In this document: positions 4,698-46,146 of the stretch, piece after piece
Numbering within the stretch: position 1 is the first letter of the stretch
How the letters are laid out: each line of letters begins with the position of its first letter
Assembly: GCA_005778045.1 (NCBI GenBank)
Contig: SXKQ01000177.1
Span: 1 to 48,150, forward strand
Direction of reading: 5' to 3'
DNA from: Planctomycetia bacterium
Lineage (GTDB): Bacteria; Planctomycetota; UBA1135; GCA-002686595
DNA length: 48,150 bases
Program-made: the position numbers and the translations under genes
Notes under the pieces: model-generated
The model's input: the letters and a program-made list of their open reading frames with translations, nothing else
Database searches by the model: none
What the model was told of the DNA's origin: nothing

Positions 4698-5321
4698 ATG
4701 GATCTCAGGCTCCTCAATCGGCTCAAGTTTCACCTCGAGCGCGCGATATCGGGCAGCGCCGACGAAAACGACTGGGACAAGATCGTGGAGTCGCTCGAGT
4801 CGTTGCTGCTGCAAGCGCACGACGCGGACACGCGCGAGCTCGCGTGGCTGCTCCAGCGCGCGGCGCCGTCGCTGCGCTCGCGGATCCTGCCGAGCGACTA
4901 CGGCAGGCTGTTCAAGGAGCTCGACGAGTCCACGCGGCGTCCGGCGCCTGCGGCGCGCGTGGAGCTGTCGATCGAGGAGCGTGCCGCCGCCCTCGTGCGC
5001 GGTCGCGCACTGCTCGTGCTGGGCGGAGATCGCCGCCAGGAGTACCAGCGCAAGCTCCAGGAGGTGCTCGAACTCTCCGCGGCCTTGTGGCCCGCAACGA
5101 AGGAAGACGCGCCGGATGTGTATTCCTTCGAGCCGCTGATCGCGCGCGCGGATGTCGCCGCCGTCGTGCTGCTGATCCGCTGGAGCCGACATGCCTTCGG
5201 CCAGGCCAAGGATTTGTGCGATACGCACGACAAGCCGCTCGTGCGTGTCGAAGCCGGCTACAACGTCGCGCAGATCGCGCGCGCACTCGTCGAGCAGGCC
5301 AGCCTTCGCCTCGACCGCTGA
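4698..5321 (+). CDS. uncharacterised protein with a DUF2325-like C-terminal domain
   Basis: The start is ATG 4698 (MDLRLLNRLKFHLERA); the open frame upstream overlaps the ATPase remnant and is ignored. The product is 207 residues. The first 120 are charged and helical, with no recognisable fold. The last 85 read like a small Rossmann-type domain: an initial strand ending in Gly-Gly (ALLVLGGDRRQEYQRKL), then EPLIARADVAAVVLLIRWSRH, then DKPLVRVEAGYNVAQIARAL. That order (GG after strand 1, a late His, a final Gly before a helix) resembles DUF2325 as I know it, with modest confidence. It stands alone between the ATPase remnant and a convergent methyltransferase gene. Confidence 0.7.
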   Translation: MDLRLLNRLKFHLERAISGSADENDWDKIVESLESLLLQAHDADTRELAWLLQRAAPSLRSRILPSDYGRLFKELDESTRRPAPAARVELSIEERAAALVRGRALLVLGGDRRQEYQRKLQEVLELSAALWPATKEDAPDVYSFEPLIARADVAAVVLLIRWSRHAFGQAKDLCDTHDKPLVRVEAGYNVAQIARALVEQASLRLDR

Positions 5322-5330
5322 GCGGATCGC

Positions 5331-6035
5331 TCAGCGCTTGCGGAAGCGCACGACGTAATTTTCCTTCAAGCCGGGCAGCTGGTCCTGCGCGAGCCGCTCG
5401 AAGCCTGCAGCGAGGATCTCGCCCACGAACACGTCCTGCCCGGCGCGCACGTGGCTCATGCACCACTCGCGCGACACGCCCTCGATGCGGTGAAACTCGA
5501 CCACGACGAGCTCGCCACCCCTGCGCAACGCGCGGTGGATCGACGCCAACGTCTGCACGGGATACTCGAAGTGATGGTACGTGTCGCACACGAACGCGAC
5601 GTCGATCGAGTCCTTCGGCAGGCGCGCGTCGTCTTCTGCGCACACGACGCCCTCGACGTTGCGCACTCCGCGCTCGGCCGCGAGCTGCTCGATGCGCTCC
5701 ACGAAGGCCGGCGCGATGTCGACCGCGTACACACGCCCCTTGGGCCCGACCGCTTCCGCGAATGGAAGCGTGAAGAGGCCCGTTCCGGCGCCGATGTCCG
5801 CCATGCTCTGGCCCGGCTTGAGGCCTACCATGGCCGCGACCGCGGCGCGCTCCGTGAAGATCTCGCGGCTCTCGGTCTCGAAGCGCTCGATGAACTTCTG
5901 GGGATCGAGCGCGGGATCGAGGAAGTCCTTGTTGATGCCGGGCTTGACGCTCTGCGGCGACGCGGGCGGAGGCGACGACTTGCACGCGGCGACAGCGAGG
6001 AGAGCCATCGAGAGCAGGCGGATCGGGAGCTTCAT
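5331..6035 (-). CDS. class I SAM-dependent methyltransferase with lipoprotein signal
   Basis: The product is 234 residues from ATG 6035. The N-terminus MKLPIRLLSMALLAVAACKS ends in a lipobox-like AVAAC, so secretion and lipidation at the Cys are predicted. The mature part is a class I methyltransferase: motif I VGLKPGQSMADIGAGTG, an acidic end of strand 2 in GRVYAVDIAP, CAEDDARLP and DVAFVCDTYHH at motifs II-III, and RALRRGGELVVVEFHR as the post-motif segment. The substrate is unknown. SAM is a cytoplasmic cofactor, so an exported methyltransferase is unexpected, although similar signal-bearing proteins are annotated in other bacteria. The gene is divergent from the FAD oxidoreductase at 6099, with a 63-base shared upstream region. 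Confidence 0.85.
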   Translation of the reverse strand: MKLPIRLLSMALLAVAACKSSPPPASPQSVKPGINKDFLDPALDPQKFIERFETESREIFTERAAVAAMVGLKPGQSMADIGAGTGLFTLPFAEAVGPKGRVYAVDIAPAFVERIEQLAAERGVRNVEGVVCAEDDARLPKDSIDVAFVCDTYHHFEYPVQTLASIHRALRRGGELVVVEFHRIEGVSREWCMSHVRAGQDVFVGEILAAGFERLAQDQLPGLKENYVVRFRKR

Positions 6036-6098
6036 GGCCGGGAATCCTGCGAAGCGCGTGCGAGCCGCGCAACCTTGACGTTTCGTACACTGCGTGTG

Positions 6099-7337
6099 AT
6101 GAGCCAATCGGTCGTGATCGTCGGTGCGGGTCTCGCGGGCCTCGCGTGTGCACGCGAGCTCGTGGCTGCGGGCCGCGAGGTGACCCTGCTCGAGCGCTCC
6201 GATCGCGCCGGGGGGCGCGTGCGCACGGACGAGCTCGACGGCTTCCGCCTCGACCGCGGCTTCCAAGTGCTGCTCGAGGCGTACCCAGAAGCGCGCGCGC
6301 AGCTCGACTACGCGGCGCTTCAGCTGCACGCGTTCTTCCCCGGCTCGCTCGTGCGCTTCCATGGGGATTTCCATCTCGTCGCCGACCCCTATCGCGCCAC
6401 GCGCGAGGCTCTCGCGGGCTTCCTGAGTCCGATCGGCTCGTTGTTCGACAAGGCGCGCGTGCTCGAGCTGCGGCGGCGCGCCGGCGAAGGCACGCTGGAG
6501 GAGCTCTTCGCGCGGCCCGAGACGACGACCCGCGCGGCGCTGCGCTCGCTCGGCTTCTCCGACACGATGGTGAAGCGCTTCTTCGAGCCGTTCCTCGGCG
6601 GCATCTTCCTCGGGCGCGATCTCGACACGTCGAGTCGCATGCTCGAGTTCGTGTTCCGCATGATGGCTCAGGGCTCGACGAGCCTCCCCGCCGGCGGTAT
6701 GGGCGCGCTCTCCGACCAGCTCGCGTCGCGCCTGCCCGCGGGCGTGCTGCGCACGGGGCACGAGGTGCGCGCTGTCTCGCGCAATTCCGTGACGCTCGCC
6801 GATGGTCGCCGCGTCGCAGCCAGTGCCGTCATCGTCGCCACCGAGGGCGACGTGGCCGCGCGCCTGCTCGGCGGCTTCCCGGCACCGCGTGCCCGCGGCT
6901 GCACCACGCTCTATTTCGATGCGCCGCGCTCGCCCGTCGGCGGGGCGAAGCTCGTGCTCAATGCCGATGGCGGCTGCATCAACTCGCTGTGCGTGCCGAG
7001 CGACGTCGCTCCGGGATACGCGCCCGCGGGGCGCTCGCTCGTCGGCGTCACGCTGCTCGGGATTCCCCCGGAAGAGGACGCGGAGCTCGAGCGGCGCGTG
7101 CGCTACGAGCTCGCCGGCTGGTACGACGGCCCGACGGTCGAGGCGTGGCGCCACCTGCGCACCTATCGCATCCCGTGGGCGCAGCCCGACCAGACTCCGC
7201 CCGCGCTCGAGCCCGTCGAGCGCCCGGTCAAGCTCGACAACGGCCTGTTCGTGGCCGGCGACCATCGCGATACGGCCTCGATCCACGGCGCACTCGGCTC
7301 GGGTCGGCGCGCAGCGCATGCGCTGCTCGGGCGCTGA
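6099..7337 (+). CDS. FAD-dependent oxidoreductase, flavin amine oxidase/phytoene desaturase-like
   Basis: The start is ATG 6099 and the product 412 residues. The N-terminus holds a dinucleotide-binding fold, VVIVGAGLAGLACARELVAAG, then LLERSDRAGGRVRT, the GG doublet typical of the amine oxidase/desaturase superfamily. The C-terminal FAD motif is GLFVAGDHRDTASIHGALGS. The middle part (FDKARVLELRRR, FFEPFLGGIFLG, LPAGGMGALSDQLA) matches bacterial proteins loosely annotated as phytoene dehydrogenase-like or protoporphyrinogen oxidase-like. The substrate cannot be told from sequence. There is no carotenoid cluster nearby. It is followed by the DUF952-cupin gene after 13 bases, probably on one transcript. 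Confidence 0.85.
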   Translation: MSQSVVIVGAGLAGLACARELVAAGREVTLLERSDRAGGRVRTDELDGFRLDRGFQVLLEAYPEARAQLDYAALQLHAFFPGSLVRFHGDFHLVADPYRATREALAGFLSPIGSLFDKARVLELRRRAGEGTLEELFARPETTTRAALRSLGFSDTMVKRFFEPFLGGIFLGRDLDTSSRMLEFVFRMMAQGSTSLPAGGMGALSDQLASRLPAGVLRTGHEVRAVSRNSVTLADGRRVAASAVIVATEGDVAARLLGGFPAPRARGCTTLYFDAPRSPVGGAKLVLNADGGCINSLCVPSDVAPGYAPAGRSLVGVTLLGIPPEEDAELERRVRYELAGWYDGPTVEAWRHLRTYRIPWAQPDQTPPALEPVERPVKLDNGLFVAGDHRDTASIHGALGSGRRAAHALLGR

Positions 7338-7350
7338 AGCGGAAACAGGA

Positions 7351-8160
7351 ATGCCGGACTTCGTCTTTCATGTTCTGGCGCCGGGCGAGCTCGCGCGCGC
7401 GCGCGCGGAGGGAGCTTGGAACGCGCCGTCCCTCGCCAGCGAGGGCTTCGTCCACTGCTGCTTCCGTCACCAGCTCGCGGGCGTGCTCGAGCGCTATTTC
7501 CGCGGCGCTGGCGAGCTCGTCGTGCTCGAACTCGAGCAGCGCGCTCTCGGACGCGTCGTCGTCGAGACTCCACCGGGAGCGGCCGAGGGTTTCCCCCACG
7601 TCTACGGACCGCTCCCGCTCGCCGCCGTGCGACGCGCGCTGCCGATGCCGGAATCGGCCGCTGGACACGAGCTGCCGCGCGAGCTCTTGGCCGACGCCGC
7701 GCACGAGGCCCGCGAGCTCGAGGCGCTGCTCGCGTCGCGGCGCTGGTACGAGCACCCCGAAGGCCCGCGCTTCTGTGAGACGCACCGCGACGAGGCTCGC
7801 ACGCTGGGGCTGTGGCTCTTCAGTCACGGCTGCCATGCCGCGTTCCACCGCGTGCGCAACGGGGACGAGCTGTGGATTGCCCAGCGCGGTCGCGTGGTCC
7901 TGCACCAGATCGACGCGCAGGGAACACATTCGGCGACCGTGCTCGGCCTCGACGCAAGCGCGGGCGAGCAGGCCGTGCTCTCAATTCCACGCGACACATG
8001 GCAAGCCGCCGAGCTCGTCCCGGGCGAGCCCTTCGCCACGGGCGCCAACGTCTGCGCGCCGCCCTTCGAGTTCACCCGCTGGGAGCTCGCCGACGCCGCC
8101 GATCTCGGCGCGCGCTGGCCGCAGCACCGCGGCCTGATCGAGCGCCTCGCCTCGCGCTGA
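7351..8160 (+). CDS. DUF952 - cupin (DUF985) fusion protein
   Basis: The product is 269 residues from ATG 7351. Residues 1 to about 110 match DUF952: FVFHVLAPGELARARAEGAW, SEGFVHCCFRHQLAGVLERY, then FPHVYGPLPLAAV. Residues about 125-265 match the cupin_5 (DUF985) family: ELEALLASRRWYEHPEGPRF, LWLFSHGCHAAFHRVRNGDE, GRVVLHQIDAQG and PFATGANVCAPPFEF. Both domains usually exist as separate small proteins. Their fusion suggests related roles, but neither has an established reaction. The 13-base gap to the upstream FAD oxidoreductase suggests co-expression. Confidence 0.85.
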   Translation: MPDFVFHVLAPGELARARAEGAWNAPSLASEGFVHCCFRHQLAGVLERYFRGAGELVVLELEQRALGRVVVETPPGAAEGFPHVYGPLPLAAVRRALPMPESAAGHELPRELLADAAHEARELEALLASRRWYEHPEGPRFCETHRDEARTLGLWLFSHGCHAAFHRVRNGDELWIAQRGRVVLHQIDAQGTHSATVLGLDASAGEQAVLSIPRDTWQAAELVPGEPFATGANVCAPPFEFTRWELADAADLGARWPQHRGLIERLASR

Positions 8161-33285: not shown

Positions 33286-33726
33286 TCAGGCGGCGGGAGC
33301 GGGGGGAATGCCGATCTCGAGGATGTTGCCGAGCGGCACGTTCTTGCCGCCGATCTGCAGCTGCGCGATGCCGTCCTCGATGCGGACGGCGTCGACCTTG
33401 CCCCACGTCTCGACCTCGGTCTCGGGGTCGACGTAGCGCACGTCCTTGCCGATCAGCGCGCTGGAGCTCGTCAGCTGCTCGAGCACCGCGTTGGACTGCT
33501 GCAGGACCGCGAGACCGACGATGTTGTCGTTGAGCTCGCTCATCTCCTCGAGCGACTGGAACTGGGCGAGCTGCGCGAGCATCTCCTCGTTCTTGGTGGG
33601 CTCCATCGGGTCCTGGTTCTTCATCTGCGTGACGAGGAGCGACATGAACGCGTCCTTGCCGAGCGCGGACTGCGAGGCGCCGGAGAGCGAGAGCGGGTCT
33701 TGCGAGCTGATGCCGGGGATCTGCAT
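33286..33726 (-). CDS. flgD: hook cap assembly protein FlgD
   Basis: The product is 146 residues from ATG 33726. The conserved N-terminal part is GKDAFMSLLVTQMKNQDPME then PTKNEEMLAQLAQFQSLEEM, diagnostic for FlgD. The C-terminus (ALIGKDVRYVDPETEVETWG, GNILEIGIPP) is short. It lacks the FLN-type domain of longer FlgD proteins. It starts 18 bases after the fliK stop. Confidence 0.95.
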   Translation of the reverse strand: MQIPGISSQDPLSLSGASQSALGKDAFMSLLVTQMKNQDPMEPTKNEEMLAQLAQFQSLEEMSELNDNIVGLAVLQQSNAVLEQLTSSSALIGKDVRYVDPETEVETWGKVDAVRIEDGIAQLQIGGKNVPLGNILEIGIPPAPAA

Positions 33727-33744
33727 GGGTTTTCCTGCTGTTTT

Positions 33745-34881
33745 TCAGGCGTAGGTGTCCACGCCATCGGAGCTTGGCGTACGACGCTGGAGCGCGGCGA
33801 CAAGGGCACGCGGAAGCGGCGCGTCGGCGGGACGGGAACGCCCCGCGGCGCCCGAAAAGGAAGATTCTTCGCGCCCGTCGCGCGCGGAGAGGTCGAGCTG
33901 CAGCGAGACCTCGCCGCCGCCGAGGCCAGCGCGCTCGAGGGCGGCGCGCAGCTCCGGGAGCGAGCGCTCGAGTGCCTCGAGTGTCGAGCGCTTCGACACG
34001 CGCAGCTCAGCGTGGGCCGCCTCGCCGCGCACGGCGACCTTGATCGAGATGCGCCCGAGCTCGCGCGGCTCGAGTTGGATCAGCGCCTCGCGCATCCCCG
34101 GCTGCAGGTGCACGCGGATCTGGCGCAGCATGGCCGCCGCCTTCTCCGCGCTCACGGGCGCTCCCTTGGACTGGGCTTCCTTGGCCACGGCGTTCTCGAG
34201 CGCCGTCTCGCTCGCACGCTGAGGAGCTTCGCGCCCCGCGAGCGGCGCGAGCGCGCCCTCGACCGTGGCCGACGCCTTGGCGCCTTCCGCGGCGCGCGCG
34301 AGCTCGGGCTTCGAGGTTGCGACCGGGGCGGCGACGTCGTCGCCTTGCAGCGCGAGTCCCTCGGGCGCGAGCTCGAGGCCGAGCTCGCCCGCCGCGAAGG
34401 GCAGGGCGAGCAGGGGTGCGGCGAGCGTGGTCACGCCGCTGGTGGACTTGGCCGTGGCGTTCTCGACGAGCGCCGTCGCTGCGACGCCCGGAGCGCTTTT
34501 GACGGTGACCGGCTCGACCTTCGTGGCCGTCGTGGCCGTACCGCTCGAGCTCGCGCCGCGCGTCGATCCCGCCCGTTGCTGCTCCGCCGGGCGCTCGGAC
34601 GCTCGCGCACGCTCGCGCACGGGCTGTTCGTCGCGCGACTCTGCGCCGCGCGACGATTTGGCCGACCGGTCCAGCTTCTGGGCCTTGGCCGACTCCGCGC
34701 CGCGCTCGCTGCGCAGGCGCTCGTGACGCTCGGCGCTGCGCTCGCGCCGGTCGTTTCGGCGCTGCTCGAGAGCCTCGCTAAAGCGCTCGCCATCGCCCTC
34801 CGGCCGGACCGCATCGGGCGTCGAGCGGCCCTCGATCGCACCGCGATCTGCCATCGTGACGCGGAAGTTCAGGGATTCCAT
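33745..34881 (-). CDS. fliK: flagellar hook-length control protein FliK
   Basis: The start is ATG 34881 and the product 378 residues; an in-frame ATG at 34854 is the alternative. The first ~100 residues are charged and disordered (RRNDRRERSAERHERLRSER), the middle is Ala/Val/Thr-rich, and residues about 265-340 form the FliK C-terminal domain: IRVHLQPGMREALIQLEPRE, LGRISIKVAVRGEAAHAELR. It measures hook length and switches export specificity. A sigma-54 promoter ends 14 bases upstream of ATG 34881, the same spacing as at flgF, and this supports the longer start. It is the first gene of the cluster. Confidence 0.9.
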   Translation of the reverse strand: MESLNFRVTMADRGAIEGRSTPDAVRPEGDGERFSEALEQRRNDRRERSAERHERLRSERGAESAKAQKLDRSAKSSRGAESRDEQPVRERARASERPAEQQRAGSTRGASSSGTATTATKVEPVTVKSAPGVAATALVENATAKSTSGVTTLAAPLLALPFAAGELGLELAPEGLALQGDDVAAPVATSKPELARAAEGAKASATVEGALAPLAGREAPQRASETALENAVAKEAQSKGAPVSAEKAAAMLRQIRVHLQPGMREALIQLEPRELGRISIKVAVRGEAAHAELRVSKRSTLEALERSLPELRAALERAGLGGGEVSLQLDLSARDGREESSFSGAAGRSRPADAPLPRALVAALQRRTPSSDGVDTYA

Positions 34882-35201
34882 CGCGTTGGGAGGGAGCAAC
34901 CGTAGTGCCAAGTGCCCGAGCCCGGTCCTGAGGCCCGTGCGGGGCGCCGCGCGAGTCGCCGCCTGAAAATTCGTCCCTGCGCGGTCGAAGTGTGCGGGAA
35001 AGGTCTGCCGGACTGCCCGCCGGCGACATGTGGAAAGGCCCTGTGCACTCGGGTGTGGAACCACACGGGTCGTCGCTGCGTCGAGTAAGCTCGGGAACTA
35101 CGTCCGGGGGCACGTCGGAAGCGCCCCACGGCACCGCGCGTCCGGCCCTCCGGATGCCGACCGGAAGGTCGCGCGGCCGTTTCGACTAGAGGTTCACTTC
35201 C
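34882..35201. other. divergent intergenic region fliK / propeller-cytochrome gene
   Basis: 320 bases. It holds the fliK sigma-54 promoter (34895-34911) and an inverted repeat GTGTGG-AA-CCACAC at 35053-35066 that could bind a dimeric regulator. No promoter is clear for the rightward gene. I see no gene here. Confidence 0.5.
34895..34911 (-). promoter_or_regulatory. sigma-54 promoter of fliK-flgDE
   Basis: On the minus strand it reads TTGGCACTACGGTTGCT, with GG and GC exactly ten bases apart and near-perfect half-sites. Transcription should start near 34884, about three bases before ATG 34881. Confidence 0.82.
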
Positions 35202-39856: not shown

Positions 39857-42061
39857 GTGAGCACCCTGCCCACCACTCCGGCGGGCCGTGTGGCGCGCAT
39901 CGCGCTCGCCGGCAACCCCAACACGGGCAAGACCACGCTCTTCAACCGCCTGACTGGCCTGTCGGCCAAGGTCGGCAACTACCCGGGGGTCACGGTCGAG
40001 AGCGAGAGCGGCACCCTGCGTCTCCCCGAGGCCGGCGCGGTCGAGCTCGCCGACGTGCCGGGCACCTACTCGCTCACCGCGCGCAGCGCCGAAGAGCAGC
40101 TCGCTATCGCCGCCATCTGCGGCCTGCCGCCGGTCGAGCGTCCCGACCTCGTGCTGCTCGTGGTCGACGCCACGCAGCTCACGCGCAACCTGTACCTCGC
40201 GCTGCAGGTGATGGAGACCGGCGTGCCGGTGGTCGTCGCGCTCAACATGTGGGACATGCTCCCCCGGATCGGCCTCGAGATCGATGCCGCGGCGCTCGCG
40301 CACGAGCTCGGAGTGCCGGTGGTGCCGATCTCGGCCCAGCACGGGCAGGGCATCGAGCCGCTGCGCGCGGCGCTCGCTCGCGCGCTCGCGGAGCCCGCGA
40401 GCGCACAGCCCGGCCCGCGCTGGGCGCCGGATTCCCCGCAGCTGCGTGCGGACATCGCAAGCGTCGCGAGCGCGCTGCCCGCGGCCTGGAATGTCGAGGA
40501 CCCCCGCCGTCGCGACGCTCTGGCACTGTGGGCGCTGCTGTCGCTCGACGAGAAGGACGAGCTCGCCGGCGCGCCGCAGGCACTGCGCGACGTCGTGCTC
40601 GCACGACGCGGGGCGGCGACTTCCGCGGGACGCGAGCTCGACGCCGAGATCATCCGTGGTCGCTACGAGTGGATCGACGGGCGCGCGCCACGCTTCCTGC
40701 GCCAGCGCGCGCAGGTGACGACGAGCCGCACGGACAAGGTCGATCGCGTGCTGCTGCATCCGGTGTTCGGGTTCAGCATATTCCTGCTGGCGATGGGCCT
40801 CGTGTTCCAGTCGCTCTTCAGCTGGGCGGATCCCGCGATCGGCGCCGTCGAGAGCGTTGTTGGCTGGTTCAAGGAGCTCGTCGTCGCGCGTCTCCCCGAA
40901 GGTCTCGTCGCGGACTTCGTCGGTGACGCGCTGATCGAAGGCGTCGGCAGCGTGGTCGTGTTCCTGCCGCAAATCGTGCTCCTGTTCCTGTTCATCGGTC
41001 TGATGGAGGACTCGGGCTACATGGCGCGCGTGGCGTTCCTGATGGATCGCCTGATGAAGGCCATCGGCCTGCACGGGCGCGCATTCGTGCCGATGATGTC
41101 GGGCTTCGCCTGCGCAGTGCCGGCGATCCTCGCCACGCGCACGATGGAACGCCAGCGCGACCGCATGCTCACCATGCTGGTCGTGCCGCTGATGACGTGC
41201 TCGGCGCGCCTGCCCGTTTACTCGCTCTTGATCGCCGCGCTCTTCCCGCCCGGCGAACTGTTCGGCTTCGTGCCGGTGCAGGGCCTGCTGATGGTCGGCA
41301 TGTACCTCTTCAGCACCGTGGTCGCGCTGGCCGTGGCCGCCGTGCTCGGGCGCACCCTGTTCAAGGGGCCGAGCGTGCCGCTCTTGCTCGAGATGCCGCC
41401 GTACCGCATGCCGGACTTGCGCAGCCTCGCCGCCATGGTGTGGCGCAAGAGTCGCGTGTTCCTGACCGAAGCGGGCACGGTGATCCTCGCCTGCACAGTC
41501 ATGATGTGGGGTCTCTTGTCGTTCCCGCACGACGCGGAGAGCGAGGCGCGCTTCGATGCCCGCGCGAGCGAGCTCGCGCTGTCAGGCGCGGACGAAGCGG
41601 CCCTGACAGCGCTCGACAACGAGCGTGCCGCCGCCGCTCTCGAGCACAGCCTCGGCGGCCGCCTCGGTCGCGCGATCGAACCCGCGATCGAGCCACTCGG
41701 CTTCGACTGGAAGATCGGTGTCGGCCTGCTCGGCGCCTTCGCCGCCCGCGAGGTTTTCGTCAGCACCATGGGCGTCGTGTACGGCATGGGCGGCGACGTC
41801 GACGACCAGACGACCGGCCTGCGCCAGCGCATCCAGCAGGAAGCGCGCGCGGACGGCGCGCCGGTCTACACGCCGATCGTCGGACTCGCGCTGATGGTGT
41901 TCTTCGCGCTCGCGTGCCAGTGCATGAGCACGATCGCGGTCGTGAAGCGCGAGACGCGCAGCTGGCGCTGGCCCGTGTTCCTCTTCGTCTACACGGGTGC
42001 GCTGGCGTGGCTGTGCGCCTTCGCGGTGTACCAGGGCGGTCTCGCGCTCGGCCTCGGCTGA
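39857..42061 (+). CDS. feoB: ferrous iron transporter FeoB
   Basis: The product is 734 residues from GTG 39857. The G domain has G1 GNPNTGKT at residues 19-26, the switch region VGNYPGVTVES, G3 DVPG at 66-69 and G4 NMWD. The membrane part has two Gate domains (MEDSGYMARVAFLMDRLMKA, HGRAFVPMMSGFACAVPAIL, TMERQRDRMLTMLVVPLMTC) and the Feo C-terminal region (GAFAAREVFVSTMGVVYGMG). It imports Fe2+ across the inner membrane, coupled to GTP hydrolysis. Thr replaces the usual Ser or Cys at G1 position 5. Confidence 0.96.
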   Translation: MSTLPTTPAGRVARIALAGNPNTGKTTLFNRLTGLSAKVGNYPGVTVESESGTLRLPEAGAVELADVPGTYSLTARSAEEQLAIAAICGLPPVERPDLVLLVVDATQLTRNLYLALQVMETGVPVVVALNMWDMLPRIGLEIDAAALAHELGVPVVPISAQHGQGIEPLRAALARALAEPASAQPGPRWAPDSPQLRADIASVASALPAAWNVEDPRRRDALALWALLSLDEKDELAGAPQALRDVVLARRGAATSAGRELDAEIIRGRYEWIDGRAPRFLRQRAQVTTSRTDKVDRVLLHPVFGFSIFLLAMGLVFQSLFSWADPAIGAVESVVGWFKELVVARLPEGLVADFVGDALIEGVGSVVVFLPQIVLLFLFIGLMEDSGYMARVAFLMDRLMKAIGLHGRAFVPMMSGFACAVPAILATRTMERQRDRMLTMLVVPLMTCSARLPVYSLLIAALFPPGELFGFVPVQGLLMVGMYLFSTVVALAVAAVLGRTLFKGPSVPLLLEMPPYRMPDLRSLAAMVWRKSRVFLTEAGTVILACTVMMWGLLSFPHDAESEARFDARASELALSGADEAALTALDNERAAAALEHSLGGRLGRAIEPAIEPLGFDWKIGVGLLGAFAAREVFVSTMGVVYGMGGDVDDQTTGLRQRIQQEARADGAPVYTPIVGLALMVFFALACQCMSTIAVVKRETRSWRWPVFLFVYTGALAWLCAFAVYQGGLALGLG

Positions 42062-42667: not shown

Positions 42668-43519
42668 TCAGGCGATCTCGAAGATGGCGCGCGCCTTGGC
42701 GATCTCGACGCGCAGCAGGGGCGCGAGCGTATCGAGCGAGTCCTGCGGCAGCTCGAGCCAGGTGAATGCGCTCTCCTGCACATCGTAGGGAACGGTCTCG
42801 CCGGGACGGTCACCGATGTGGAAGCGACAGGTCGTCGCCTCCGCCAGATGCCCGACGCTCGCGAACGCGGGATCGCCGTGGCTGCGGCGCGGATCGTGGT
42901 GCGTGCGAATCGCCTCGACGAGCTCGTCGGGGAAGCTCCACTTGCGCGCGAGCCGTGCGCCGACTTCCGCATGCGAGAGACCGTAGGTGGCGCGCTCGGC
43001 TTCGACGGGATCGACACCCGAAGAGATCGCGGCCGCGATCTGCTCGCGGTGCTCCGGCACGAAGCGCAGCAGCACGATCTGCCCGATGTTTTCGAGCAGG
43101 CCGAGCGTGTACGCGCGATGGCGCTCGACGCGCGCACTGCGATCGGCGATCGTCGCGGCCGCGACTGCCGTGGCGATCGAGCGCTCCCAGAGCGCCAGCG
43201 CCGCCTCGGGGTCCGCATAGCCGTAGTCGCGCAAGTAGCGACCGGCGCAAGAAGTGAGCGCGAGGCTCGACAGCGTCTGCACTCCGAGGCGATTGCCCGC
43301 TTCCTCGAGCGACGAGATCTCGCGCTGGAAGCCGTACAGCGAGCTGTTGCACAGCTTGAGGACCTTGGCGGTCGTGCCCGGATCGCTCTGGATCACCGCG
43401 ATCAGCTCGCTCGGGACCACATCGGGCCGCGCGGCAAGCTGCATCACGCGCGTCGCGACCTGCGGCAGCGGTTCGAGGCTCTTGATGTCCTCGAGAAGTT
43501 CGTTGAGCGCGGTCGACAT
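42668..43519 (-). CDS. HDOD-domain signalling protein
   Basis: The product is 283 residues from ATG 43519. Typical HDOD order: LPQVATRVMQLAARPDVVPS, VIQSDPGTTAKVLKLCNSSL, YGFQREISSLEEAGNRLGVQ, LALTSCAGRYL, then HRAYTLGLLENIGQIVLLRF, GLSHAEVGARLARKWSFPDE and IRTHHDP. HDOD domains resemble HD phosphohydrolases without the full catalytic set and are linked to chemotaxis, motility and c-di-GMP signalling. The flagellar cluster is 8 kb away, so a motility link is only a suggestion. Confidence 0.9.
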   Translation of the reverse strand: MSTALNELLEDIKSLEPLPQVATRVMQLAARPDVVPSELIAVIQSDPGTTAKVLKLCNSSLYGFQREISSLEEAGNRLGVQTLSSLALTSCAGRYLRDYGYADPEAALALWERSIATAVAAATIADRSARVERHRAYTLGLLENIGQIVLLRFVPEHREQIAAAISSGVDPVEAERATYGLSHAEVGARLARKWSFPDELVEAIRTHHDPRRSHGDPAFASVGHLAEATTCRFHIGDRPGETVPYDVQESAFTWLELPQDSLDTLAPLLRVEIAKARAIFEIA

Positions 43520-43629
43520 GGCGTTGCTTCCGTGCGCAGCACGGCTCCAAGCTCGTTTCGACGCTTGCTCACGAGGCCGTTGAGTCTTTTCTTCTGCGCC
43601 CTTGTTCGCAGGCCGGGCCTAGTCTCACG

Positions 43630-43671
43630 AAAAACCCCGCGCGCGGCCGCGTGAAGGCCACTGCGCGGGGT
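43630..43671 (-). terminator. intrinsic terminator downstream of the DsbD-like gene
   Basis: On the minus strand ACCCCGCGC and GCGCGGGGT pair and are followed by TTTTT, 22 bases past the stop at 43693. It is a classic Rho-independent structure for the leftward DsbD-like gene. It also confirms that the coding unit extends past the internal TGA. Confidence 0.8.
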
Positions 43672-43692
43672 CGGAGCGCGCGAGGGGGGCGG

Positions 43693-46146
43693 CTAGTTCA
43701 GCGCCTTCTTGAGGAACTCGGTGAACTTCGTGCCGTCGCCGAGCGGCGGGGCGTCGGGGCCGGGGAAGCGCGCCTTGATCTTGCGCGTGGCCGGGTCGAT
43801 CGCGAGGTAGTACGGCGTCGCGCGCGCGCCGGCGAGCTCGTCCTGAAGCTTCGTCGTGCGCTCGATCACCTCCGGGTTCTTGAAGTCGTCGATGTGCAGG
43901 CGCGCCTCGACGAACCTTTCGCGCAGGATCCCGCCGACCGCGGGGCGATGGAAGACGTCCAATTCCATCGCGCGACAGCTCACTCACAAGTAGCCGGTGA
44001 AGTTCACCAGCACGAGCTTCTTCTGCTGCTGCGCGAGCACGAGCGCGGCCTCGTAGTCGTCCTTGACGATCGCGTGCTCTTTTCTTGCGGCCGAGGCGAC
44101 GTCGCCGGCGCTCGTCTCGAAGCCCGCAACACGCGGCACCGAGTACGGCGGCGCGACCTGCGTCATGATCGAGTCGAGACGATTGCCGAGCGCTCCGAAG
44201 CCGCAGTAGATCGCGAAGCACAGGAACAGCATGCCCGAGAGCAGGCGTCCTCCGCCGATCTCACCCGTCTCGCCGTGGTAGCGGATCAGGCCGAGCAGGT
44301 AGATCGCGGTGATCAGGAACACCGCAAACCACAGCGCGAGGAACAGCTCGCGCGGAAGCACCTGCCAGCCGTAGGCGAGGTCGGCGTTCGAGAAGAACTT
44401 CAGCGCGGCCGCAAACTCGACGAAGCCGAGCGTGACCTTCAGCGTGTTCATCCACTCGCCGGCGCGCGGGATCGAGCTGAGCTTGCCCGGCACGAGCGAG
44501 AGCGCCACGAAGGGAAGCGCCATGGTCAATCCGAACGTGCCCATGCCGAGCACGATGCGCTCCCAGTTGCCGCTCGACGCGCCCACCGACAGCAGGCTGC
44601 CGACGAACGGGGCCGTACACGTGAACGACGTGATCACCAGCGTCGCGCCCATGAAGAACACGCCGACGTAGCCGCCGCTCGTGCGCGCCTGGCCCGCCAT
44701 GTTCATCAGGAACTGAGGCGGCTCGAGGTTGAAGAGACCGAGCAGCGATAGCGCGAATACCACGAAGAAACCGCCGATGACGAGGTTCGTGACCGGGTGC
44801 GTGGCGAACTGGATGATCGGCGCCCCGACGAGCACGCCGATCAGGATGAACATCAATACGATGCCGAGGCCGTAGAGCGCGCTGAGCGTGAAGCGCTTGC
44901 CCTGCTGCTGCGAGGCCTGCTTGGTGAAGAACGAGATCGTGATCGGGATCATCGGGTAGGTGCACGGCATCAGGAGCGAGAACACGCCCCAGAACACCGC
45001 TAGCCCGAGGAACTCGAGCAGTCCCGTCTCTTCCGCCGGAACATCTCCCGACACCGCGGCCTTGTCCGCGCCCGCCGCGCCCTTCGCCGGGAAGCCCTCG
45101 AAGATCGAGTCCGCGCCCGGCCCGAGGCTCTCCACCGCCGCTGCGAACTGCACGCACACCTGCGGGTCGCAGGTCTGGCCCGTGATGTCGACGTTGGCCT
45201 TCGAGATGTCCGCGCCCGGCTCGAGCTCGCCGCGCGCGAACAGCACGATCGAGCCCTCGTGCTGCCACGCCCAGGTCGGCCCGCCGTTGGCGCCGTAGGC
45301 CTGCTCGCCCTTGTGAGGCTCGGGCCACGTGACCTTGCCCCACACGATGCCGTCGCCGCCGAGCTTCACCGTCGTCGGGACCGCGAGCGCGTCCTCGGGG
45401 CCGAGGGTGTCGTGGAACAGGTGCCAGGTCGGGTCGATGTCGATGCGGATCGCCGCGCGCGCCTCGCCGTCGACGACGCGCGTGTAGAGCTCGACCCGCG
45501 CGTGCGCCTCGGGATCCTCGTAGGTCATGAAGGGCAGCGGCCCCTCGTCGTCCTCGTCCTCCTCGGTGTCGGCGTCGCGTTCCTCCGTCGCCTCGCCCGC
45601 GGGCTCGCCCGGCCCCTTGAGGTCGGCCGGGAAGTCGGCGAAGGCCGCGTCGGGACCCGCACCGCCGTTGGTCGCGCTGCCCTTGAACATCAGGCACACG
45701 CCGCCGGTCTCGCAGGTCTGGCCCTCGAGCCGCACGCTCGCCGGCGCGAGGTCCGCGCCTTCCGCGAGCTCGCCGCGCACGTACACGAGCAGCGTGCCGT
45801 GGTGAATGTTCACCTCGGTCGGGTTGCCGTCGCTGCCGAACTCCTGCTTTTCGACTTCCGGCGTGGGCCAGCGCGGCGTCCCCCACGCGACCGCGTCCCC
45901 TTCGAAGCTGAGCACGCTCGGCAGGCCGACCGCCGTCGGGCTCCCGAGCTCGTGGCCGTAGAGATGCCAGCCCGGCGAGATCTTGATGCGCACCACGCCG
46001 CGCACGTCGCGGCCCTCGGCACGGGTGAAGAACTCGAGCTTGGCCTTCGGGGCCTGCGCCCCGAACTGGGCCGCGCGGACAGGCCCGGCGAGCGCCACGA
46101 GGAAGGCGGCCAGCCACAGGCCGACGATGCGGAGGAGATGGGTCAT
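43693..46146 (-). CDS. DsbD/ScsB-like thiol:disulfide reductase, predicted selenoprotein (Sec721)
   Basis: From ATG 46146 (MTHLLRIVGLWLAAFLVALA, signal) to the stop at 43693 there are 817 residues if TGA 43984-43986 is read as selenocysteine. Two tandem DsbD-alpha-like domains come first, each ending in a Cys pair: C145-x5-C151 and C326-x4-C331, separated by an acidic linker (EEDEDDEG). The eight-span DsbD membrane domain follows, with C395 in LLMPCTYPMIPITISFF and C510 in SFTCTAPFVGSLL. The C-terminal thioredoxin fold has VNFTGYL-U-VSCRAMELDVF where relatives have FTGxxCxxC, and the cis-Pro loop ATPYYLAIDP. It would carry electrons from cytosolic thioredoxin to periplasmic partners. Without recoding the protein ends at residue 720 and loses its reductase domain. 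Confidence 0.88.
43945..43986 (-). promoter_or_regulatory. candidate bacterial SECIS with UGA codon
   Basis: The TGA is 43986-43984. After 12 bases the minus strand has GCGATGGAA, a nine-base loop TTGGACGTC, and TTCCATCGC: nine perfect base pairs, with GG in the loop 24-25 bases after the UGA. Position, stem and loop guanines match the bSECIS model recognised by SelB. Confidence 0.75.

Follow-up and report, generated by a model that had tools for sequence, protein, structure and literature searches.

The analysed stretch of DNA from a Planctomycetia bacterium (contig SXKQ01000177.1, 48,150 nucleotides, hereafter the window) contains a gene that, judged by comparative sequence analysis, very probably encodes a genuine selenocysteine (Sec) form of DsbD. 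This explanation is the most likely one because TGA and Cys codons alternate at the homologous position with at least ten switches between them, the Sec machinery is present in close kin, a hairpin downstream of the TGA is shared within the genus, and the Sec-specific DNA pattern recurs elsewhere in the phylum. The product would be a full-length member of the DsbD family that transports reducing equivalents and is composed of two alpha-type domains, a CcdA-like membrane domain, and a gamma domain with a UxxC motif. The UGA would be decoded as Sec by SelA, SelB, SelD and tRNA-Sec, aided by the hairpin just downstream, and the protein itself would contain selenium. The features of the locus are as follows.

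43693..46146, minus strand: predicted Sec-DsbD gene, ATG at 46146 and TAG at 43693; 817 residues, Sec721
43984..43986, minus strand: in-frame TGA, putative Sec721, first residue of UxxC; the 141 rows comprise 98 with TGA and 43 with Cys
43975..43977, minus strand: Cys724, resolving Cys of UxxC; Cys in 98/98 Sec and 43/43 Cys rows
43945..43971, minus strand: SECIS-like hairpin GCGAUGGAA-UUGGACGUC-UUCCAUCGC, 9 bp; loop begins 21 nt past the UGA; lost in locus L014
45688..46026, minus strand: first alpha-type domain (DsbD_N), residues 41-153, with Cys145 and Cys151; PF11412; the full-length model matches DsbD-alpha structures
45127..45501, minus strand: second alpha-type domain, residues 216-340, with Cys326 and Cys331; 37% identity to the first copy
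44155..45021, minus strand: membrane domain, residues 376-664, with Cys395 and Cys510; PF02683; both Cys invariant in 43 rows; seen in the full-length model
43696..44073, minus strand: thioredoxin-fold gamma domain, residues 692-817; AlphaFold model of 680-817, Foldseek matches to 3f9u and DsbD-gamma structures
43813..43815, minus strand: presumed cis-Pro778 (ATPYY); column P99 nearly invariant in 38 rows
43626..43676, minus strand: intrinsic terminator 3' of the Sec-DsbD gene; hairpin of -33 kcal/mol, then UUUUU

With the TGA read as U, the translation runs from MTHLL through NFTGYL-U-VSCRAMELDVF and ATPYYL to a terminal KKALN (817 residues, U at 721), and the TGA at 43984-43986 is the only stop within this minus-strand ATG-TAG frame. 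A phmmer search in which residue 721 was entered as C placed it opposite the leading Cys of the FTGYGCVNC motif of PDB 3f9u, a C-terminal domain of DsbD-like type from Bacteroides. Translation and alignment thus agree with a preliminary description of the locus, which had placed the TGA at the expected first Cys of a C-terminal CxxC and had the frame continue via RAMELDVF and ATPYY to an ordinary stop, found here as the TAG at 43693. The intrinsic terminator that it proposed past the stop was recovered as well, its hairpin having a z-score of -5.4 that was equalled in 0 of 200 shuffles; this terminator is absent from the list produced by a simple scan, which allowed loops of 3-8 only.

Pfam models matched the 817-residue protein as DsbD_N (residues 41-153), DsbD_TM (381-584) and Thioredoxin_7 (695-785), with PF13098 scoring 26.6 bits, slightly below its cut-off of 27; the portion upstream of the TGA has, on its own, no Pfam thioredoxin domain. 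The two alpha-type DsbD_N domains form a tandem pair (window 45127-46026), each member with its own Cys pair. The second copy scores 19.9 bits against PF11412, for which the cut-off of 25 is not reached, and its Cys326 and Cys331 are invariant in 43 rows. The AlphaFold model of the gamma domain (pLDDT 86.9) has 3f9u as its top Foldseek match, with ranks 5 and 8-13 taken by DsbD-gamma structures. Its Sec site lies immediately before helix 43-52, which comes after strand 32-38, and it is at that point before the helix that the attacking Cys of thioredoxins sits. The full-length model (mean pLDDT 84.3, pTM 0.59) has a thioredoxin fold and a helical membrane part in addition to its two beta domains; since Foldseek returned unrelated adhesin chains for it at similar E-values, only its DsbD domains are relied on. 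Alpha, membrane and gamma domains with the three redox pairs of DsbD are hence all present, one gamma Cys being replaced by Sec. The score against the NCBIfam DsbD model NF001419 is 121.1 bits, below the cut-off of 330, and the Cys homologue P0005 is also below it (127.5 bits); on sequence scores, the protein is classed with the DsbD family rather than with the curated NF001419 subfamily.

E. coli DsbD is the model for the electron path from cytoplasmic thioredoxin through the membrane to exported clients. The DsbD of E. coli and Neisseria has the same order of alpha, membrane and gamma domains as the window protein, with gamma matches to 2fwe, 1uc7 and 4ip6 by profile and to 1vrs, 2fwh and 6dnl by fold, and alpha matches to 1l6p, 1jpe and 6dps by fold. 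The window protein differs in having Sec in place of the first Cys of gamma, two tandem alpha domains, and a gamma domain nearer to Bacteroides 3f9u. By analogy with the E. coli protein, electrons would pass from cytoplasmic thioredoxin to the membrane pair Cys395/Cys510, from there to the exported Sec721/Cys724 pair, and then to the alpha-domain pairs Cys145/151 and Cys326/331, which would reduce the exported clients. It is from this analogy that we infer the order of electron transfer, the existence of such clients and the role of an exported reducing hub.

Evidence for Sec comes from the homologous codon in related genomes. The orthologue in the nearest genome is 95% identical and has one TGA. 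Six of the seven same-genus genomes have an orthologue, which contains one TGA in five of them and none in the sixth (G006). Within the class, matches to the protein were found in 148 of 154 genomes, and the codon could be read in 139 of these 148, the other nine being masked, uncovered or unlisted. Among the resulting 141 rows (the window and 140 loci from 139 genomes) there are 98 TGA, 35 TGC and 8 TGT codons and no others; counted by genome, 96 of the 139 have TGA and 43 have TGC or TGT. Two loci with TGC, a paralogue in G006 (L015) and one in N-masked DNA (L184), were dropped from these counts, and the 43 Cys rows include six (L178-L183) of a distant DsbD type. Thus, the in-frame UGA occupies a position that in homologues holds a conserved, functional residue, as expected of a bacterial selenoprotein. 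The comparison with Cys-containing homologues suggested in the preliminary description therefore has an answer in the 43 Cys rows, and the possibility it raised that TGC or TGT would replace the TGA is contradicted by the recurrence of TGA in 96 other genomes, which shows that the codon is not a read error.

Residues around the site are strongly conserved: +3 is Cys and +7 is Glu in 141/141 rows, and +4 is Arg in 98/98 Sec and 35/43 Cys rows. The rows of the separate gamma alignment A1 were chosen by a pattern in which the neighbouring N, F, T, G, C, R, M and E are fixed, and its invariance there is therefore uninformative. A FastTree tree of 163 rows (120 Sec and 43 Cys, with the site masked) requires at least ten Sec/Cys changes, nine of them among class rows; some of its rows are long-branched, and the direction of change is not given by the tree itself. 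One set of 124 rows in this tree contains 106 Sec and 18 Cys rows; the Cys rows are scattered within it, and they are read here as reversions from an ancestral Sec.

The hairpin downstream of the TGA gives further evidence. Its 9-bp stem in the window corresponds to 10-bp stems in the five Sec-containing kin of the same genus, the loops starting 21-22 nt past the UGA. In L013 the stem is kept through a G-C to C-G swap, and in L014, the same-genus Cys orthologue, it is gone. The bSECIS rule places the loop 16-37 nt from the UGA, with a G in the first two loop bases and an energy of at most -7.5, and some selenoprotein genes fall outside this model (PMC13188914). The preliminary description had proposed a SECIS search; judged by this rule, the picture is divided: a SECIS-like hairpin is present in the window, and its spacing (21 nt), stem and energy (-11.9 kcal/mol) agree with the rule, but its loop lacks the prescribed G, so the rule as a whole does not hold. 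All five same-genus Sec kin show the complete set of features. Across the class, the rule including the loop G holds in 28/98 Sec and 6/43 Cys rows; an unbroken hairpin of -7.5 kcal/mol or lower, with the loop-G rule left aside, occurs in 39/98 Sec and 6/43 Cys rows, compared with a fraction of 0.19 for synonymous shuffles of the Sec rows.

The mean folding z-score relative to synonymous shuffles is -0.91 in the 98 Sec rows and -0.23 in the 43 Cys rows (one-sided Mann-Whitney p = 1.4e-4, for rows that are not independent). The window stretch alone is only mildly stable against dinucleotide shuffles (z-score -1.5, with 15 of 200 as good) and does not stand out against synonymous shuffles (z-score -0.20); RNAalifold gave a weak four-pair consensus (-1.48) for the ungapped Sec rows. 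Pairing in the upper stem amounts to 0.901 in the 98 Sec rows versus 0.870 under synonymous-codon permutation, a value that 0 of 1000 permutations reached, where the 13 tested stem pairs were named after viewing folds of the same rows, the permutations ignore relatedness, and the Cys rows serve as the control. In this control no excess was seen for the 18 main-clade Cys rows (0.639 versus 0.641), and all 43 Cys rows gave 0.721 versus 0.703 (55/1000). Codon permutation revealed no covariation of the outer stem in Sec rows (0.857 versus 0.862). Synonymous choice downstream of the UGA is skewed in the Sec rows toward GCG for Ala (75/77), GTC for Val (86/93) and GAA (56/98), for which the backgrounds are 0.49, 0.46 and 0.20, respectively.

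The Sec machinery was scored in the seven same-genus genomes, and that of the source genome is inferred from these kin. Scores over the cut-off were obtained for selA in six of seven genomes (G002 has a fragment), for selB in six (the exception is G006), for selD in all seven, and for tRNA-Sec in five (G002 is slightly below and G004 does not reach it); the missing genes may be gaps in drafts of 78-92% completeness. The search for selA, selB, selC and selD advised in the preliminary description was thus largely successful in the kin, and a wholesale absence of the machinery, which would have spoken against Sec, is not what the genus shows. Each of the seven SelD loci (L042-L048, from G001-G007) has one in-frame TGA, and for this reason SelD is itself probably a selenoprotein. 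Genome G006 combines a Cys-DsbD with selA, selD and tRNA-Sec, its selB not scoring over the cut-off because of a draft gap or a loss; the Cys form in spite of these three genes implies that Sec is not indispensable. An origin of the Cys forms through loss of the Sec machinery is unsupported, as selA is over the cut-off in 139/154 class genomes compared with 96 that have TGA, and G006 points the same way.

Other readings of the TGA were weighed against a genuine Sec codon. If it were a true stop, the gene would encode a CcdA-like DsbD without gamma domain, and the downstream frame would be either separate, as a 96-aa ORF from the GTG that immediately follows the TGA, or untranslated. Gene callers do end the gene there, as does the protein in most of the best homologues considered below. 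However, a separately made downstream product would be without its attacking residue, the 43 class genomes with Cys at the site have a frame running into the gamma domain, and the sequence past the TGA is kept, including Cys +3, Arg +4 and Glu +7 in every Sec row; we consider a true stop highly improbable. The stops of the neighbouring FeoB (39857-42061) and HDOD (42668-43519) genes are both TGA, hence TGA is not a sense codon throughout. These normal stops also argue against a selenium-free read-through in which a near-cognate or altered tRNA inserts Cys or Trp at the UGA, as do the Sec machinery of same-genus kin, including a SelD with its own TGA, and a hairpin whose covariation is confined to the Sec rows. 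Such read-through would fit Cys being the sole alternative at the site and the published SECIS rule holding in just 28/98 Sec rows, and on balance its chances seem just as slight.

A pseudogene or a sequencing error at this codon is the least credible alternative, with a negligible probability. It would account for the single in-frame stop and for the few codon changes after the TGA relative to the two closest kin, which do not point clearly to purifying selection (5 synonymous versus 5 non-synonymous for L001, 5 versus 8 for L010). Against it stand the TGA at the same codon in 96 other genomes and in the complete record CP036296.1 (strain Pla86), and the changes in farther kin, where synonymous and non-synonymous counts are 14 and 9 (L011), 22 and 13 (L012), and 25 and 20 (L013).

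The genuine Sec form of DsbD appears to be distributed well beyond the genus. A Sec-specific DNA pattern retrieved 106 stretches from GTDB r220 genomes, including a match in CP036296.1. The 80 of these 106 that were listed are, by title, 63 planctomycetes, 15 labelled 'bacterium', one Bacillota and one Proteobacteria (MAG labels as given), and in the tree the last two (L242 and L197 between them) fall inside a clade with planctomycete-labelled rows. Among the 80 listed stretches, 58 are class loci already counted and 22 are additional, at least one of the latter (L233) seemingly being class genome G089 by match position. Seven of the 22 were scanned, giving DsbD_TM in 7/7 and DsbD_N in 6/7. 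These relatives are of more than one kind, 12 of the 22 falling in the tree into a long-branched clade of their own. In a phylum sample, the pattern was found in 51/392 genomes and its reversed control in none; 23/41 of the genomes in the class and 28/351 outside it, across eight families, had pattern matches, which are candidate Sec-DsbD loci. Of the 28 genomes with the pattern from outside the class, 27 have selA over the cut-off, versus 19/28 genomes without the pattern (Fisher p = 0.012), the latter being a non-random comparison set hand-picked from the first listed, with mostly less complete genomes left out.

Side by side with this spread, the proteins in the database are widely truncated. 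Among the best 120 of 749 homologues (E 0.001), 91 break off directly ahead of the site and thus lack the catalytic domain, so that annotation is widely affected; 28 have CxxC and one is another fragment. For instance, P0054 of Engelhardtia mirabilis stops at NFTGHT. Some Sec-DsbD relatives also vary in layout: 190-258 residues follow the Sec site, compared with 96 in the window, in L185, L194, L195, L197, L225, L228, L229, L230, L242, L246, L252, L261 and L263. In the last of these (5008-7353) the best DsbD_TM stretch (residues 624-766) lies past the Sec site (523) and a second DsbD_TM stretch is present, so its domain order seems to be different.

UxxC in a gamma-like domain is already known as a prediction. 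We take cd02953 to be the DsbD-gamma model. The GOS survey contains a 'Trx-like 2 (Thiol disulfide interchange protein)' family with cd02953 and UxxC, 22 in the first count (PMC2398784); the word 'Planctomycet' does not occur in that paper. Three UxxC thiol:disulfide interchange proteins were reported from Syntrophus aciditrophicus, Geobacter metallireducens and G. uraniumreducens (PMC1794560). A 2026 review covers 119 selenoprotein families or subfamilies, among them a UxxC 'Thiol:disulfide interchange protein' (PF13098) and the DsbD fusion TsoB, and in the part of that source consulted no UxxC entry among the 119 is named DsbD (PMC13188914). The 'Thiol:disulfide interchange protein' resembles the window protein in that UxxC is the catalytic motif of its thioredoxin-like domain; its entries are described by this thioredoxin domain alone and may or may not also have membrane and alpha domains. 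The window form is a full-length DsbD. TsoB (NF045694, a rhodanese/DsbD fusion-like selenoprotein) shares the DsbD-like membrane part (125.7 bits, residues 368-586). Its motif is UxxxxU with two Sec, and the window protein scores far below the cut-off of 805 with a match that stops short of gamma, placing it outside TsoB. Selenoproteins have been described in two planctomycete strains (PMC4807772), and the supplementary list of that work could include a DsbD. With this proviso, a full-length Sec-DsbD, its spread in Planctomycetota and its systematic truncation were not found in the literature searched on DsbD, protein-disulfide reductases or disulfide interchange together with selenium, and on planctomycete selenoproteins. 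The 'noteworthy addition' announced in the preliminary description is partly anticipated, since UxxC thiol:disulfide interchange selenoproteins had been predicted before.

We lean toward a broader interpretation in which Sec in DsbD is ancestral to a whole class of Planctomycetota and present in several further families of the phylum, makes envelope reducing power selenium-dependent, has been exchanged for Cys repeatedly, and has been missed through truncation. DsbD is an electron entry point for many exported thiol proteins, and Sec in it would therefore tie envelope redox balance to selenium supply. If this is true, the supply of envelope reducing power depends on selenium in a large group of environmental bacteria. 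Sec is a more nucleophilic attacking residue than Cys and is more easily rescued after oxidation; these two properties would be its benefit here. Because Sec and Cys have been exchanged repeatedly, with retention or loss of the hairpin, these switches would provide a natural experiment on what selenium buys and a way to test why Sec is kept.

Including the DsbD codon, ten in-frame TGAs in the window have coding-like GC3 on either side, and none of the remaining nine candidates was convincing by eye. One of the rejected sites, the TGA at 33745-33747, is an ordinary stop between FliK and FlgD rather than a case of recoding; these two genes share one frame with the TGA between them (window 33286-35064).
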